From Candidatus Neomarinimicrobiota bacterium (GTDB lineage: Bacteria > Fidelibacterota > UBA2242 > B5-G15), in NCBI GenBank assembly GCA_017656425.1, contig JACDNV010000034.1, positions 1-5,404 on the forward strand: a DNA stretch of 5,404 nt, in the 5' to 3' direction. Position numbers and translations under genes: made by a program. Shown piece after piece: positions 1 through 5,060 of this stretch (its first letter is position 1; each line of letters opens with the position of its first letter). The notes under the pieces were generated by a model. It was not told where the DNA came from, ran no database searches, and saw only the letters and a program-made list of their open reading frames with translations.

Positions 1-543
1 AATGTAATAAAACCCTCCTACACTTCCCCAGTTAATTTGAATTAGTATAATATCGTTTAAAGTAATTTCAGCAAATGGCTTATATTCATCATTAATTCTT
101 TGTATAATTGGTTTATATTTTTTCCACAACTCCTTTACTTTTGCTTTCTCATAAAAATCTCTGTAAAGATCATCAAGACCATCATATTCTTTTAAAAAAT
201 CCTTTTGTTTTAATGTATCGTATTTAATAATGAATTTTGGTGGTTCAGATAATAATAATGCATATATACCATATGAACTAAAATCACCACCCCCATATTG
301 TTTATAGAAATCATTCATTTTTGCTTTAAATTCACTACAAAGATTTCTATCAAGATAGTCGCGTATTTCAACCCTGATTTGATGCATTTCACTCCAATCA
401 TGATTAAATCCTGCAGCATTCATAAAAGCATAAGCAGTAAATAAATTCTCGTTAGCATCAAAGCAATATATTGAATTTTCTTCCGAGTAACAAATGCTAT
501 AGAAAAGTACTATAATAATTGATAACAGATTAAGTTTTTTCAT
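1..543 (-). CDS. Exported protein of unknown function (3' end beyond window)
   Basis: An open frame of 181 codons starts at ATG 543-541 and leaves the window without a stop, so only the N-terminal part is visible. The first ~22 residues have two lysines, then a hydrophobic stretch (LLSIIIVLFYSICYS), which reads as a Sec signal peptide; the cysteine context is not a good lipobox. The mature part is mixed polar and aromatic, with a FNHDWSEMHQIRVEIRDYL segment near residues 46-64 and YALLLSEPPKF near residues 95-105. This pattern vaguely resembles exported hypothetical proteins that carry a metallopeptidase-like region further on, but no HExxH is present in the visible part, so no function is assigned. 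The start is supported by GGAG six bases upstream (550-553). The gene begins about 30 bases after the attC R' box at 569-574, as expected for the gene of cassette 4. Confidence 0.85.
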   Translation of the reverse strand, partial: MKKLNLLSIIIVLFYSICYSEENSIYCFDANENLFTAYAFMNAAGFNHDWSEMHQIRVEIRDYLDRNLCSEFKAKMNDFYKQYGGGDFSSYGIYALLLSEPPKFIIKYDTLKQKDFLKEYDGLDDLYRDFYEKAKVKELWKKYKPIIQRINDEYKPFAEITLNDIILIQINWGSVGGFYYI

Positions 544-567: not shown

Positions 568-699
568 GCATAACGCTACGGCTCAGGGGCGGCAAACATG
601 CAGGGCAACCAACTATAGATTAGCACCAGATTTTATGCGGGGCACTGACTTCGAAAAAGCGCCACGCTGTTTGCCGTCCTTTGCAGCCGATTGTTATGT
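568..699 (-). other. attC recombination site (~130 bp) of the Mrr-like nuclease cassette
   Basis: Read on the minus strand, an R'' box (CACATAAC, 694-699 region) and an R' box (GTTATGC, 568-574) flank imperfect inverted repeats: AGCCG 685-689 with CGGCT 579-583, and GTTTGCCG 669-676 with CGGCAAAC 590-597. The outer CATAAC (569-574) and GTTATG (693-698) are exact complements. The arms are interrupted by unequal unpaired bases, as in attC sites, and the ~70-base centre is the variable terminal structure. The size is like that of Vibrio cholerae VCR-type sites, but the sequence differs. The site starts 13 bases after the stop codon of the nuclease gene, the normal place for a cassette's attC. 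Predicted strand exchange is G|TT at 574/573. Confidence 0.85.
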
Positions 700-1593
700 G
701 AATGCTTTTTACTATTCATCGTCTCCTAATTCGTTCAAATATTTTTCGTATTCTTTTTTGTTCAAATAAAAATGATGCGTATCATCAGATTCATATATAA
801 ATTTTTCTATATTATTTATACTGTTAATCCATTTTGTTATTCTAAACCTATCTAATCGATTGCTAAAACACATTTCTAAATCACTCGGAAAACATGGAAG
901 CGGAAAAGTTTCCATTTTTCTTTCATGGAAATTAATAATAAAATAATTACCCTTATAATAATCTACACAATGCGAAGTATCATTTTTAAGTTTGGGAATT
1001 TTGCCAATCATAATCTCATAATGAGTATCAGCACCATCGCCGATTCCTAGTTCCAAATTAAGTAACTTACCTATAGCATGACCTAACGACTCATTATTTG
1101 CAAAGAATTCCTTATAGTACTTATGATAAATATGGAAATTATGCTCTTCTTTGAGCATGTCCTCAATGTCATCCCAAAATATAATTTCAAATCTAAATTT
1201 ATTCTGCCTGCTAAGTCGATTGTTAATTTCTCTTGCAATTTCTTGTAATTTAACATCCCTATGCAGAGTTGTGGCTAAAATATAATGGTCTAGTTTTGGA
1301 TTGAATTCTAATGCCTTATTTATTTCTGTTTCTATCTCTTTTTTACTTAACATGTTAGATGTATTTCTCGCCTTACACTGAATACCAAACCATTTCTGTG
1401 AATTTATTTTTCTTCCGAAAATATCAACTCCATTTTGTGGTTGACCAGGACGACCGTTGAATGCAACAAGTTCGTTATTATTGCTGTCATTGTCCCAAAT
1501 ATCACGACATAGATATTCAAACTTTTTCCCATCTGCTATTACTGGAATCTTCACCGTTCTTAAATCGTTCATTATTATTTCATACTCACATAA
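574..1593 (-). mobile_element. Gene cassette 3: Mrr-like nuclease plus attC
   Basis: Bounded by the G|TT points of the R' boxes at 1589-1594 and 569-574. It holds one gene (712-1572) and its attC at the 3' end, a standard single-gene cassette of about 1.0 kb. Boundaries are inferred from the core boxes. Confidence 0.7.
712..1572 (-). CDS. Standalone Mrr-like PD-(D/E)xK endonuclease, putative defence protein
   Basis: A 286-aa protein. Residues ~10-150 match the restriction-endonuclease-like (Mrr-cat) domain seen at the N terminus of many Avs/STAND and other defence proteins. It has E19 in the first helix (FEYLC), the signature NGRPGQPQNGVD ending in catalytic-type D50, and the GIQCK strand with Q65 and K67. 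Then come a KEIETEINKA helix (~78-87), the strand HYILATT (~96-102) and FWDDIEDML (~132-140), all typical of this family. It probably cuts DNA. In place of a fused NTPase or TIR module there is a ~130-aa C-terminal region (KGNYFIINF, FPLPCFPSDLE, NNIEKFIY) that could be a target-sensing part; I cannot name it. A longer frame opens at 1620, but its first 16 codons lie in the upstream attC, so the ATG at 1572-1570 is preferred (MNDLRTVK). No strong ribosome site is visible. The stop is TAG at 714-712. Confidence 0.85.
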   Translation of the reverse strand: MNDLRTVKIPVIADGKKFEYLCRDIWDNDSNNNELVAFNGRPGQPQNGVDIFGRKINSQKWFGIQCKARNTSNMLSKKEIETEINKALEFNPKLDHYILATTLHRDVKLQEIAREINNRLSRQNKFRFEIIFWDDIEDMLKEEHNFHIYHKYYKEFFANNESLGHAIGKLLNLELGIGDGADTHYEIMIGKIPKLKNDTSHCVDYYKGNYFIINFHERKMETFPLPCFPSDLEMCFSNRLDRFRITKWINSINNIEKFIYESDDTHHFYLNKKEYEKYLNELGDDE

Positions 1594-1740
1594 CGATAGC
1601 ATCAGCCGTTGAAACCGCATAAGACAAAACTTGAGAAATAAACAAAACTTGATTTCTGCTTAAAACTCTAAAAAAAGCACAGCGGTTTAAATCGGCTGAA
1701 TGCACTATTTTTTAAACCGTTTATTGCCAAATTGTTACAT
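1588..1740 (-). other. attC recombination site with degraded R'' box
   Basis: The R' side is intact: on the minus strand, GTTATGTG (about 1587-1594). The long arms GCATCAGCCGTTGAAACCGC (1599-1618) and 1682-1703 (GCGGTTT...CGGCTGAATGC) are complementary over about 20 bases with two extra bases on the outer arm, typical of attC. Where the partner R'' box should follow, at about 1704-1711, the sequence is ACTATTTT instead of GTTATG. A possible replacement, ATGTAAC on the minus strand, lies further out at 1734-1740. The centre has an 11-base direct repeat, ACAAAACTTGA, at 1624-1634 and 1642-1652. The inner arm also matches TTTAAACCG at 1711-1719. The site follows the lipoprotein gene, closing cassette 2. 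The fold is convincing; the outer limit is uncertain. Confidence 0.7.
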
Positions 1741-1788
1741 CAAGTATTTGAATGAACATACCTGTCTTAGTTTTACATAGTACTATTT

Positions 1789-2274
1789 TCATTTCAAACT
1801 TTGGTCAATTTTAGAACTAGTCAGGCTTGTTTTCCATGTTGTTCCATCGTCAAATGCGACTTTTTCAAGATATGTAAACAAAAACGCTCCTTTTCCAAAA
1901 TCCAGTTTTCTTGAATAGACTTTGTGATTATTGTCTTGCCTTGGCTTTGTGAAATCAATCTCAGAATATCTGACTGTGGTAATCTTTTCTTTGAAGTCAT
2001 CATAGATGGGAAAGAGGACATCATATCTTTTGATTCCCTTACTACTAACATTTTGAATTCGCACAGCAAAGCGCCATTCCGAAAGCCCGTACTTACCTTT
2101 GGTTTCACCAGCCAGTACTTCTATAATTCTGATAGGCGCATCCCTTGTGTTTATTATAATTGCTTTCATCAGGTTGTGTTCTGACTCGATACCTGTTAAA
2201 GTATCAACACCTTTTACGAATTGTTCATTTGTGCAACCGATTAGCAAAAATAAACTTGTGAGAAAAAAAATCAT
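1789..2274 (-). CDS. Putative lipoprotein with an FxLYD/DUF5780-like beta-sandwich domain
   Basis: A 161-aa protein from ATG 2274-2272. It begins with a hydrophobic segment ending in the lipobox LLIGC (Cys14), so it should be lipidated and anchored to a membrane outside the cytoplasm. The mature part contains WRFAVRIQNVSSKGIKRYDV (~67-86), PIYDDF (~88-93) and VAFDDGTTWK (~139-148). This pattern resembles the FxLYD/DUF5780 type of small Ig-like domain (inference from motifs only). The annotated ATG has no ribosome site and gives a signal peptide without a basic n-region. An ATT codon at 2295-2293 lies seven bases after a strong AGGAG (2307-2303) and would add NILKIA, including a lysine, making a standard 20-residue lipoprotein signal; the true start may be there (168 aa). 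It lies 75 bases downstream of the membrane-protein gene in the same cassette. The stop is TGA at 1791-1789. Confidence 0.8.
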   Translation of the reverse strand: MIFFLTSLFLLIGCTNEQFVKGVDTLTGIESEHNLMKAIIINTRDAPIRIIEVLAGETKGKYGLSEWRFAVRIQNVSSKGIKRYDVLFPIYDDFKEKITTVRYSEIDFTKPRQDNNHKVYSRKLDFGKGAFLFTYLEKVAFDDGTTWKTSLTSSKIDQSLK

Positions 2275-2298
2275 CGCTATTTTTAGTATGTTAATGTT

Positions 2299-2347
2299 AA
2301 AGCTCCTCTTGTTTGTTTTGCATAGTGGTGTATAATCATAGAGCTTT
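2299..2347 (-). promoter_or_regulatory. Possible hairpin masking the lipoprotein ribosome site
   Basis: In the minus-strand mRNA, AAAGCTC (2347-2341), just after the upstream stop codon, is complementary to GAGCTTT (2305-2299), which overlaps the AGGAG ribosome site (2307-2303). A ribosome finishing the upstream gene would sit on the first arm and free the site, which would couple the two genes. The stem is only 7 bp with a 35-base loop, so its stability is doubtful. Confidence 0.3.
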
Positions 2348-2349
2348 CA

Positions 2350-2652
2350 TTACTGCGAAGAATTTTTTGTAAATACGTCATGCGATATTTTGAAACCTAA
2401 ACCACCAATTACAGCTACTAACAAGGCAACAAATAACTGGTCTTTTATAAAGTTCAAGGCTCTGGTTAGCAAGACAAAAGATAAAATTAAAATCGCATAA
2501 AAGTTAAATAGATGCTTCAACGAAACGAGTCTCTTTCCCTTAGCATCATCGCCAAATTTGCCGATGTTTTTCATAGTCGTATTGGTTACCCAAGCAGAAA
2601 GTATCATACCAATTAAACAGACGATAGAGGTCACCAAGATTATTTCGTTCAT
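2350..2652 (-). CDS. Small three-helix inner-membrane protein, function unknown
   Basis: A 100-aa protein starting at ATG 2652-2650 behind a strong ribosome site, AAAGGGGGA (about 2657-2665). Three hydrophobic stretches are visible: residues ~3-23 (IILVTSIVCLIGMILSAWV), ~48-66 (LFNFYAILILSFVLLTRAL) and ~72-88 (LFVALLVAVIGGLGF). A short basic/polar loop, KNIGKFGDDAKGKR, separates the first two. The C-terminal tail is short and polar. No catalytic motif or known family is recognised. It is the first gene of cassette 2, starting about 30 bases after the attC R' box, and is followed by the lipoprotein gene. The two may form a membrane/lipoprotein pair, but nothing in the sequence proves it. The stop is TAA at 2352-2350. 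Confidence 0.8.
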   Translation of the reverse strand: MNEIILVTSIVCLIGMILSAWVTNTTMKNIGKFGDDAKGKRLVSLKHLFNFYAILILSFVLLTRALNFIKDQLFVALLVAVIGGLGFKISHDVFTKNSSQ

Positions 2653-2676
2653 GAAAATCCCCCTTTCGATTTACCC

Positions 2677-2736
2677 GTATAACGCTGCTAATCAGCCGCG
2701 CGGCTTTTTGCGTCGGCTGAATTAGCCTGGTTATGT
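2677..2736 (-). other. attC recombination site (60 bp, canonical)
   Basis: The clearest attC in the window. On the minus strand the order is R'' ACATAAC (2730-2736), L'' GCTAATTCAGCCG (2726-2714), a short centre, L' CGGCTGATTAGC (2698-2687) and R' GTTATAC (2683-2677). L'' has one extra base relative to L', the extrahelical base that orients the folded bottom strand for the integrase. The layout is close to that of the classic aadA7 attC. The centre includes the palindrome GCCGCGCGGC (2695-2704). It overlaps the 3' end of the upstream coding region, whose stop codon lies in L'. Confidence 0.93.
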
Positions 2737-3241
2737 GGGACATTCCTTTCTTCTTTCTCGTCTTTCTTATTTTGCATTCGAATTGCAAAAAAAGTTACTA
2801 CCGAACTTGATAAGACTCCTATGAAAAATGAAATAAGAATTTCAAGCCAGGCTCGTCTGCCTTCTACAGCAGCTTGGTAATCGAATAATGCATTTATTTT
2901 CTCTCTATCAATTTGTAAAATCTTCTCTATTTTTTCTCGTTCCTTTTCAAGTTCGAGTTTCTCCACAGACAGTTTCTTTAAACTGTTTTGTTGATTTTCT
3001 ACATATGTGTCTAACGTGGACAGAGCGGTTCTAATTTCATTTAATTCTTGGATTTTTTGTTTAATGTCGGACGAAACAGTAGGCTGAATAAAAAATGCCA
3101 TAAGGCCAAAAATGGCTCCTATGAGAGAAAAGAATGATGATAAATAGCTCCATTTCGAAGATGCCGACCATTTCAACCATTGTTTACGATTCGGTATTAA
3201 TCCCATTATTATCTTTTAGACCTTTTGCTGATTGCACATAA
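2683..3241 (-). mobile_element. Gene cassette 1: TM-coil-TM protein plus attC
   Basis: Bounded by G|TT of the candidate R' box at 3236-3242 and of the canonical R' box at 2677-2683. It is about 0.56 kb and carries a single gene (2688-3206) that starts 36 bases after the left junction, similar to the other cassettes here (about 20-35 bases). The left boundary depends on the weaker site at 3236-3323. Confidence 0.55.
2688..3206 (-). CDS. TM - coiled coil - TM membrane protein with attC-encoded tail
   Basis: A 172-aa protein starting at ATG 3206-3204. After an amphipathic start rich in tryptophan, lysine and serine (residues 1-20), it has a hydrophobic helix at ~22-40 (LSSFFSLIGAIFGLMAFF). A long charged coiled-coil region follows (~46-105, rich in Glu/Lys/Leu, with EKLELEKEREKIEKIL), then a second membrane helix at ~121-143 (LEILISFFIGVLSSSVVTFF) and a charged tail. 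With two membrane passes the coil probably lies outside the cytoplasm, with both ends inside; oligomerisation through the coil is an inference. Residues ~158-172 (HNQANSADAKSRAAD) are read from the attC, a common result of cassette genes running into their recombination site, so this tail is unlikely to be functional. Only a weak AAAAGG lies upstream. No family is recognised. The stop is TAG at 2690-2688, inside L'. Confidence 0.8.
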   Translation of the reverse strand: MGLIPNRKQWLKWSASSKWSYLSSFFSLIGAIFGLMAFFIQPTVSSDIKQKIQELNEIRTALSTLDTYVENQQNSLKKLSVEKLELEKEREKIEKILQIDREKINALFDYQAAVEGRRAWLEILISFFIGVLSSSVVTFFAIRMQNKKDEKEERNVPHNQANSADAKSRAAD

Positions 3242-3375
3242 CATAAGATTAGGTGTGCTAATGAAAAAAGCAAAAGTTGCTCTTCATGACTACCTAATCC
3301 ATGTCGCTCATTAATTGTTATCTGTTTATTACTTATAAATTTAATCACATTAGTACAAAACATAGTCGTCTCCAT
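3184..3375 (-). CDS. Doubtful 63-codon ORF crossing an attC-like junction
   Basis: The frame can be read from TTG at 3441 (85 aa), but codons before 3375 are the shifted remainder of the integrase pseudogene. From ATG 3375-3373 there is a reasonable ribosome site (GGGAGAAAAGG, 3381-3391), giving 63 aa (METTMFCTNVIK...). The middle of the frame (about 3236-3300) is the attC-like fold, and the end overlaps the start of the next gene by 23 bases. It is therefore probably the 3' tail of a truncated cassette gene, or chance reading across a recombination junction, rather than an intact gene. No family is recognised. Confidence 0.25.
   Translation of the reverse strand: METTMFCTNVIKFISNKQITINERHGLGSHEEQLLLFSLAHLILCYVQSAKGLKDNNGINTES
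3236..3323 (-). other. Weak attC-like site (or attI-like junction)
   Basis: On the minus strand an R'-like box, GTTATGT (3242-3236), is preceded by a long imperfect hairpin. The outer arms are GATTAGGT/ACCTAATC (plus-strand positions 3247-3254 and 3292-3299). Inner stems are TGAA/TTCA (3262-3265, 3283-3286) and AGCAA/TTGCT (3269-3273, 3277-3281) around a three-base loop. A candidate R'' box, AGATAAC, lies at 3317-3323, further from the arm than usual. The next gene starts 36 bases beyond the R' box, as expected for a cassette start. The irregular R'' spacing keeps this tentative. Confidence 0.45.
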
Positions 3376-3533
3376 AATTTCCTTTTCTCCCATTTCAAGA
3401 GGATGCTTTTTGTTATGAAAAAAGATAGACTTCTTATCCAATTGATGTAAGATTATTTAGTTCCCAAGCTGTAATTCTTGACCAGAATATCTCGCCTTAC
3501 TTGATCTAACAATTTAGCTTTATTCTCTGTCAT
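3376..3533 (-). pseudogene. intI: Integron integrase remnant (5' part of intI, broken and truncated)
   Basis: From ATG 3533-3531, behind AAAAGGA (about 3537-3543), the frame reads KAKLLDQVRRDILVKNYSLGTK and stops at TAA 3455-3453. In the same frame it continues as SYINWIR, then must shift by one base at about 3430-3435 to continue as SIFFHNKKHPLEMGEKEI, ending at about 3376. Joined, this matches the N-terminal SAM-like domain of integron integrases, which runs KLLDQVR..HYS.RTE.AY..WI.RFI.FH...HP..MGE.EI. The TAA replaces a Gln or Lys codon by one base change, and one base is missing after WIR. Everything after residue ~53, including the catalytic Arg/His/Tyr domain, is absent, so no recombinase is made. 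It points the same way as the cassettes, as in the reverse-integrase integrons of Treponema. The IntI assignment rests on the characteristic FHNKKHPLEMGEKEI block. Confidence 0.85.
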
Positions 3534-3708
3534 ATAATCCTTTTACTTCTCAAAAATCTTAACGATAATGTTTAGCTATATGCATAGTACTGGATTTACA
3601 GAGACCGAGATCTCATTAGACGATACAAAACCTGACTAAATTCCCAAAACCTAAATGCTAAGCTGAACAAACACATTTTATATATATCATGTTGTTCCGT
3701 CATATATT
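3534..3708. other. Intergenic region upstream of the intI remnant
   Basis: This holds no convincing gene. It should contain the old integrase promoter, but no clear -35/-10 pair or LexA box is visible. A palindrome, GAGATCTC, lies near 3607-3614. A minus-strand ORF of 35 codons (3596-3703, MTEQHDIYKM...) starts six bases after the preceding stop codon but lacks a well-placed ribosome site and resembles nothing known. TAACGATAATGTTTAGC at about 3560-3576 and GCTAAGCTGAAC at about 3658-3669 are loosely attC-like but too imperfect to call. Confidence 0.4.
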
Positions 3709-4091: not shown

Positions 4092-5060
4092 TTAGCACTT
4101 ATAATAATCACCTTTTTTATAAAGGATCGCTATCCTTGCTAGTAATTTCATTATATAATTATCTTTTATTATAGTAAAATAATCTCTAGAAAAATCTTGT
4201 TTTTTTACTTTTATCCCATGTGCAACTCCACACCGGTTTATATGGTAAAGATAGTCTGCTATTCTTTCATTCGTTCCAAACTTTTTTCTCAAATACTTCA
4301 AACGACTCACAGCTTTCCTCTTGTATAATTGCATTAAGTTTTTACTTGGTCCTCCCTCTATATCAGTAATTTTTATATACCCAAAATCAAATGCTTCTAT
4401 TTTGTCAATATTAGAAACTACAAAATCTTTCCATTTTTTTGATTTGTAAGTATTTAGACAACTTTCAATTACCTTACTGTATTCTAAAAATTCACTCAAA
4501 AAATCGGGCTGCCTTAGCGCTGTTCCATACAACAGCAGCTCTTTAGCTACTTTGCTATATTGCTGTGTATAATCTAAATTTATTGGATCAAATTTGCCCT
4601 CACCATAAAAGTGAACTGTACCATAACCTAATTTTAATGATACTGTATACTCTAATATAGCGATATAATCATAAATAAATTTTTGAAGATTTCTTTTCTT
4701 ATATTTCCCTAAACCAAAAATTGGAGAATAATTTATTGAATAGCGATTACTACAATAAACAAACGTTGGTAAGTCAAGTTCAAATGAAATACAGTTAGCA
4801 TAAAAAAGTGTCTGTTCGAGGGACGGATGTTTTTGATTCTTAAATGGATATAGACATAAATCATATCTAGTATGTTGCTGGGATATAGCTATTTTATTAT
4901 CTATTGTAACATCAAAGAAAGAGTCGTTGGCTAATCCAACTACGGCTATAACAAATTTTGCAGGCTTGTAATTTTTAAAAAAATATTTTTTTTCTTCTTC
5001 AAATATTTCTTTTTGTAGTTTTTTTAAGCCCTCTCTAAAATTTTTATTAGATTTTACCAT
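4092..5060 (-). CDS. HEPN-like domain protein, possible ribonuclease or defence protein
   Basis: A 322-aa cytoplasmic protein with no signal peptide or membrane helix. The N-terminal half (residues ~30-160) is mixed alpha/beta and unrecognised (KFVIAVVGLANDSFFDV, LPTFVYCSNRYSI). The C-terminal half (~165-315) is helical: FLSEFLEYSKVIESCLN (~187-203), YKRKAVSRLKYLRKK (~246-260), then IADYLYHINRCGVAHGIKV. The last segment contains R276-x4-H281, the Rx4-6H motif of HEPN ribonucleases, followed by the usual glycine. The layout loosely recalls MauJ-like and ApeA-like HEPN proteins. RNA cleavage is an inference, and some HEPN domains are inactive. The start at ATG 5060-5058 has no ribosome site, but a 13-codon leader ORF ends across it. 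The gene is very AT-rich. It lies upstream of the intI remnant, outside the cassette array, with no attC. The stop is TAA at 4094-4092. Confidence 0.7.
   Translation of the reverse strand: MVKSNKNFREGLKKLQKEIFEEEKKYFFKNYKPAKFVIAVVGLANDSFFDVTIDNKIAISQQHTRYDLCLYPFKNQKHPSLEQTLFYANCISFELDLPTFVYCSNRYSINYSPIFGLGKYKKRNLQKFIYDYIAILEYTVSLKLGYGTVHFYGEGKFDPINLDYTQQYSKVAKELLLYGTALRQPDFLSEFLEYSKVIESCLNTYKSKKWKDFVVSNIDKIEAFDFGYIKITDIEGGPSKNLMQLYKRKAVSRLKYLRKKFGTNERIADYLYHINRCGVAHGIKVKKQDFSRDYFTIIKDNYIMKLLARIAILYKKGDYYKC

Follow-up and report, generated by a model that had tools for sequence, protein, structure and literature searches.

Integrons whose integrase gene (intI) runs in the same direction as the cassettes, termed reverse integrons, are known in Treponema (PMC3607928, PMC7691350), and an inverted-integrase group of integrons has been recognised (PMC10500605). 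The decay of integrons is also documented. T. phagedenis carries an integron remnant that lacks intI (PMC3607928). Pseudogenes make up about one third of intI genes, and one in five integron carriers has more than one intI (PMC2426708). An active integrase can carry a cost, and its loss has been observed experimentally (PMC3510236); progressive loss of the integron has been reported in Xanthomonas (PMC12444791).

The locus considered here is best explained as a sedentary reverse integron that is now dead, a reading to which we assign a probability of about 0.85. It lies in a window of 5,404 bp that constitutes the complete contig C34 of a 2.80-Mb genome assembly (50 contigs, 99.66% complete). 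Since the window is the whole contig, the array cannot be traced below position 1. A search of the assembly for a 16S rRNA gene found none; with such an assembly, and with a 5.4-kb contig that ends within the fourth cassette, the neighbours of the array are out of view.

The integrase remnant and the cassettes

The features of interest are all on the minus strand and follow one another from right to left as a broken intI (3533-3341), a conserved block (3351-3239) and four cassette units, with every attC site located 3′ of a minus-strand ORF or of intI. An Rfam search of the window gave no match. The individual features are as follows.

4092-5060, minus strand: ORF of 322 aa in the flank upstream of intI (ORF list), with no family from a domain search
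3341-3533, minus strand: intI pseudogene in which residues ~1-58 (3533-3370) are joined to residues ~302-313 (about 3380-3341), from tblastn with the intact IntI of relatives and from TIGR02249
3239-3351, minus strand: conserved attI-like block of ~113 bp, from identity to contigs C6 and C20, copies in genomes G036 and G006, and a fold z of -4.1
2688-3206, minus strand: ORF of cassette 1, 172 aa, coiled coil plus membrane segments (ORF list; weak matches only)
2677-2736, minus strand: attC of cassette 1, canonical short form (covariance model, 21.5 bits; fold z -4.4)
2350-2652, minus strand: first ORF of cassette 2, a 100-aa membrane protein (ORF list)
1789-2274, minus strand: second ORF of cassette 2, a 161-aa putative lipoprotein (ORF list; lipoprotein-type start from sequence)
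1588-1699, minus strand: partly decayed attC of cassette 2, with an extra base in the L boxes, R′ intact and R″ degenerate (stem plus R′ score; fold z -1.6)
712-1575, minus strand: ORF of cassette 3, 287 aa, of Mrr-like (PD-(D/E)xK) endonuclease type (PF13156, phrog_8991, plasmid homologues)
568-699, minus strand: probable attC of cassette 3, long form, 132 nt (stem scan; fold z -2.2; arm similarity to other attCs)
1-543, minus strand: ORF of cassette 4, truncated by the contig end, with a signal peptide at its start (ORF list)

Residues 1-58 of the relatives' intact IntI align by tblastn to 3533-3370, a piece that matches the integron-integrase family TIGR02249 (E 8.8e-9) and contains one in-frame stop and one frameshift. 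The ORF of the remnant continues with METTMFCTNVIK, a match to the ETTM-YTHVI end of IntI. Over 40 bp the intI DNA of the window shares 80% identity with the 3′ coding end of the intI pseudogene on C20. The preliminary description of this DNA was right to see an integron integrase here; because C-terminal codons are also present, however, the remnant is a gene that lacks its middle and more than the 5′ fragment that was proposed. The motif TGATTAA occurs twice on C20, once where intI ends and again ahead of the block, the copies being 99 bp apart, and in the window as a single joined copy, which suggests a deletion between short repeats. The integrase gene would have been lost by deletion of its middle, about residues 59-301; a stretch of about 100 bp that separated intI from attI was probably deleted between the two TGATTAA copies, and the gene would also have gained its stop and frameshift. 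On the plus strand, 19 of 21 bases at 1726-1746 are intI-like, a match treated as chance (E about 0.4).

A complete, divergent intI next to the array had been named beforehand as a finding that would speak against the same-direction reading. The genome was searched for an intact IntI and gave no IntI-grade match at E 1e-30. The integrase gene expected of an integron is present as pseudogenes only, with the pieces in the window and on C20 matching TIGR02249, and the collapsed gene together with the absence of an intact IntI from the genome leaves no functional integrase, so that the locus is a remnant rather than a working integron. The array would be frozen, in that nothing encoded in the genome should move its cassettes, with the putative attI block and the cassette genes persisting.

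The attC sites were assessed with a covariance model of 21 aligned sites, none from the window, that a structural scanner had collected from other genomes. Shuffled sequence, 304 kb in all, gave this scanner no match at a score of 13 or above. The sole convincing match of this model in the window is the site at 2677-2736 on the minus strand (21.5 bits, E 0.0019), and its stem score of 14 was equalled in none of 400 shuffled windows. The model was made from the arms alone, with a short centre, and therefore serves long attC sites poorly; stem tests were used for these instead. For the site proposed at 568-699 the scanner returned exactly these ends with a score of 11.5, a modest result in that 3.75% of shuffled windows score as high. 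The scanner called this site on the plus and not the minus strand; it is taken as a minus-strand site on the likeness of its putative arms, CTGCAAAGGACGG...CCGCCCCTGAGCCGTAGCGTTATGC, to other attCs such as CTCCAAGGGACG...CGCCCCTGAGCTCCACGTTAGCC at locus L066. At 1588-1699 the stem and R′ score is 14.5 (2% of shuffles reach 12 or more), with an intact R′ box, GTTATGT, and L boxes that carry an extra T; R″ has degenerated and no outer stem forms, such that the site first drawn at 1588-1740 holds up in its L boxes and R′ only. The three sites are graded as strong (2677-2736), probable (568-699) and partly decayed (1588-1699).

Cassettes that end in attC, the mark of membership in an integron array, are thus found once by the model and twice by the stem and R′ tests. 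When the two sites missed by the model are counted, the window in effect holds the at least two attC sites, with no functional integrase nearby, that define a CALIN. The same model run on the whole genome found only C6 and missed the window site itself, and this first pass was therefore non-exhaustive. A search with the R-box pattern gave 16 places (9 and 7 per strand) against 14 and 18 in a backward control, and by eye these were attC-like only at C6 and in the window. The run of an attC model that had been recommended, having yielded no match in the window beyond 2677-2736, is equivocal when taken alone, and the case is carried by the stem and R-box tests and by the sister loci.

The predicted crossovers, at the G of GTT, are at 3242, 2683, 1594 and 574 and delimit units of about 559, 1,089 and 1,020 bp. 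Cassette ORFs start 13-30 bp past each site, and a short gap of this kind is usual in integron cassettes. No attC was seen between the two ORFs of cassette 2. The cassette 3 protein matches PF13156 with an E of 0.0013, which is below the family cut-off, and phrog_8991 with 1.8e-18, and it has homologues on plasmids with identity up to 41%. The cargo outside cassette 3 consists of small proteins of membrane, lipoprotein or exported type, none with a confident family assignment; the ORF at 1-543 had a weak restriction-enzyme match, dismissed in view of the signal peptide with which the protein opens. Unrelated cargo had been singled out as informative, but mixed cargo is usual for integron cassettes.

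The attI-like block

The block at 3239-3351 is 90% identical to a copy on C6 and 77% identical to a copy on C20. A further copy in G036, a genome from a different family of the phylum, matches the C6 copy at 78%, and a partial copy is present in G006, which brings the count to five loci in three genomes. At four of them (the window, C20, G036 and G006) the block is located 3′ of an intI remnant, following the C-terminal residues 204-323 of an IntI (with SPAD at the end) in G036 and the few last intI codons in G006, and on C6 it heads the array alone, without intI. Similarity among the copies ends at GTTA in all five loci. GTT(A) is the point where an integrase would join a cassette, and in the window an R box (GTTATGT, 3242-3236) places the predicted crossover between G3242 and T3241. 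From its recurrence 3′ of intI remnants and from the common end of similarity at GTTA, the block is read as the putative attI of the reverse integron.

Part of this block, 3236-3323, had been described as a weaker attC. It does form a real, if imperfect, hairpin (fold z -4.1) with attC-like boxes; three of the four copies retain this hairpin (pairing in 91.7% of cells, versus 36-56% when slid), and one might suppose that the block is an attC left behind by a first cassette without a gene and now lost. Covariation of the hairpin in the four sequences was not above that of shuffles, however, and the other attCs of the genome differ from this recurrent block, which makes such an origin unlikely. 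The hairpin region is most likely part of the attI docking site, as judged from sequence comparison, and not a fourth attC. A promoter search in and around the block found no excess. It is a speculative and rather doubtful suggestion that the block still serves the cassettes, for example as a promoter, and hence outlives the integrase in the phylum; with its attC-like hairpin it may represent a structured attI, in contrast to the attI sites known from earlier studies.

Sister loci and the direction of the integrase

Two more intI pseudogenes are present in the same genome, on C19 and C20, together with the intI-less array on C6. The C20 pseudogene has lost residues ~47-247, and the block stands 3′ of it on the same strand, as it also does in G036. 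The C19 pseudogene keeps residues 30-148 and traces of residues 217-250, the region specific to integron integrases. On C6 the block is followed, in the same direction, by an attC of 21.9 bits. The same-direction layout of intI and cassettes is found in the window, on C20 and on C19, and in intact form in two relatives of the same order: G016, with intI at 7432-8409 and attCs at 6062-6194 and 5327-5456, all on the minus strand, and G015, with an attC at 265-330 (minus) and a weaker one at 1582-1667, on the strand of its intact intI. The original proposal of a decayed integron with this layout is borne out by these loci.

Of 80 loci in named genomes, most of those in which attCs could be detected have the divergent layout, the same-direction exceptions being L088, L103 and L111. 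In a tree of IntI proteins the same-direction label requires two changes, a count as low in 2 of 500 shuffles, and the same-direction IntIs from Spirochaete, Cyanobium, Acidobacterium and G015 are near each other. The IntIs nearest to the window pieces, those of G016 and G005, form their own branch, and the window pieces are too short for placement in the tree. A single origin of the same-direction layout is no more than possible.

It is very improbable that the platform retains activity in trans, supplied by XerC/XerD or by an IntI from a replicon out of view. The window attC still folds well, the attCs of C6 and the window score well with the model, and the assembly is in 50 contigs; yet the genome is nearly complete and without an IntI-grade match, and the tyrosine recombinases that are full-length, at C5 and C10, resemble Xer. 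Clusters of attC without an integrase are common, occurring in about half of Xanthomonas genomes (PMC12444791), but a CALIN-type cluster that never had its own integrase and lies beside an intI scrap by coincidence is hardly credible here: the intI remnant, the block and the first cassette keep register with one another in the window, on C20 and in G036.

Several further observations were made at these loci. On C19 (L176:1-2600) the pseudogene is followed by plus-strand genes with a degenerate attC near 1833-1900, and a transposase-like gene (2668-3663) lies beyond. The C6 array holds more decayed attC-like sites (L027:9060-9140 and 11030-11100) and a cassette, at 9156-9617, with G+C clearly above that of its neighbours; the 51 bp just upstream of the C6 block are 82% like DNA beside an Xer-like remnant at C8. 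Short Xer-like recombinase remnants occur at L029:8417-8566 and L030:7519-7617. In the one-contig genome G036 of the phylum (L183:9253-9612, minus strand) the C-terminal third of intI alone remains, then the block and then a gene. In relatives of the same order or family (L143, L144 and L145, from G014, G018 and G001), intI is divided between two ORFs, broken by two TAA, or has four stops. A conserved ~112-aa protein without a Pfam family (31-49% identity) is a neighbour of IntI at seven loci; in five its gene follows immediately 3′ on the same strand, and in the other two it is upstream and divergent (L031:7084-7422, minus; L033:584-934, minus; L032:2398-2739, plus; L037:3249-3590; L042:6978-7298; L072:342-653; L050:254-568); it is a possible partner of IntI.

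Comparison with described integrons

The host order of the window's genome is probably not Treponematales, judging from its small size (23 genomes in the set), and this is probably a second lineage, besides Treponema, in which dying reverse integrons can be followed. Its stages of decay occur together, from intact (G016, G015) through split or interrupted (G014, G018) and collapsed (the window, C20, C19) to the docking site only (C6, and G006 save for the few last intI codons). The apparent sequence of decay, with the integrase lost first and attI last, could be examined across the phylum.

The likeness to Treponema denticola drawn in the preliminary description stands as to direction, but Treponema is not the only group with reverse layouts, and a dead example had already been described in T. 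phagedenis (PMC3607928). As in T. denticola, intI and cassettes run in one direction with attI, here putative, between intI and the first cassette (PMC3607928, PMC7691350), a likeness taken from published descriptions; the T. denticola integron, in contrast, is intact, judged active, and has a long array. The remnant of T. phagedenis is similar in that attC sites and cassettes outlast intI in a lineage of reverse integrons (PMC3607928), and differs in that no intI was found there, whereas here an intI scrap and the attI-like block are seen, and at several loci. As for the inverted-integrase group of integrons (PMC10500605), the G015 IntI falls near other same-direction IntIs, whereas those of G016 and G005 stand apart. 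As with intI pseudogenes and CALINs elsewhere (PMC2426708, PMC12444791), the integrase is lost and the cassettes are kept, and more than one intI per genome is common; the present loci are distinguished by large internal deletions of intI and by retention of the attI-like block. Both the architecture and its fate are thus already known, though uncommon, and the additional value of this locus is in sister loci at different stages of decay and in a block that outlasts the integrase.
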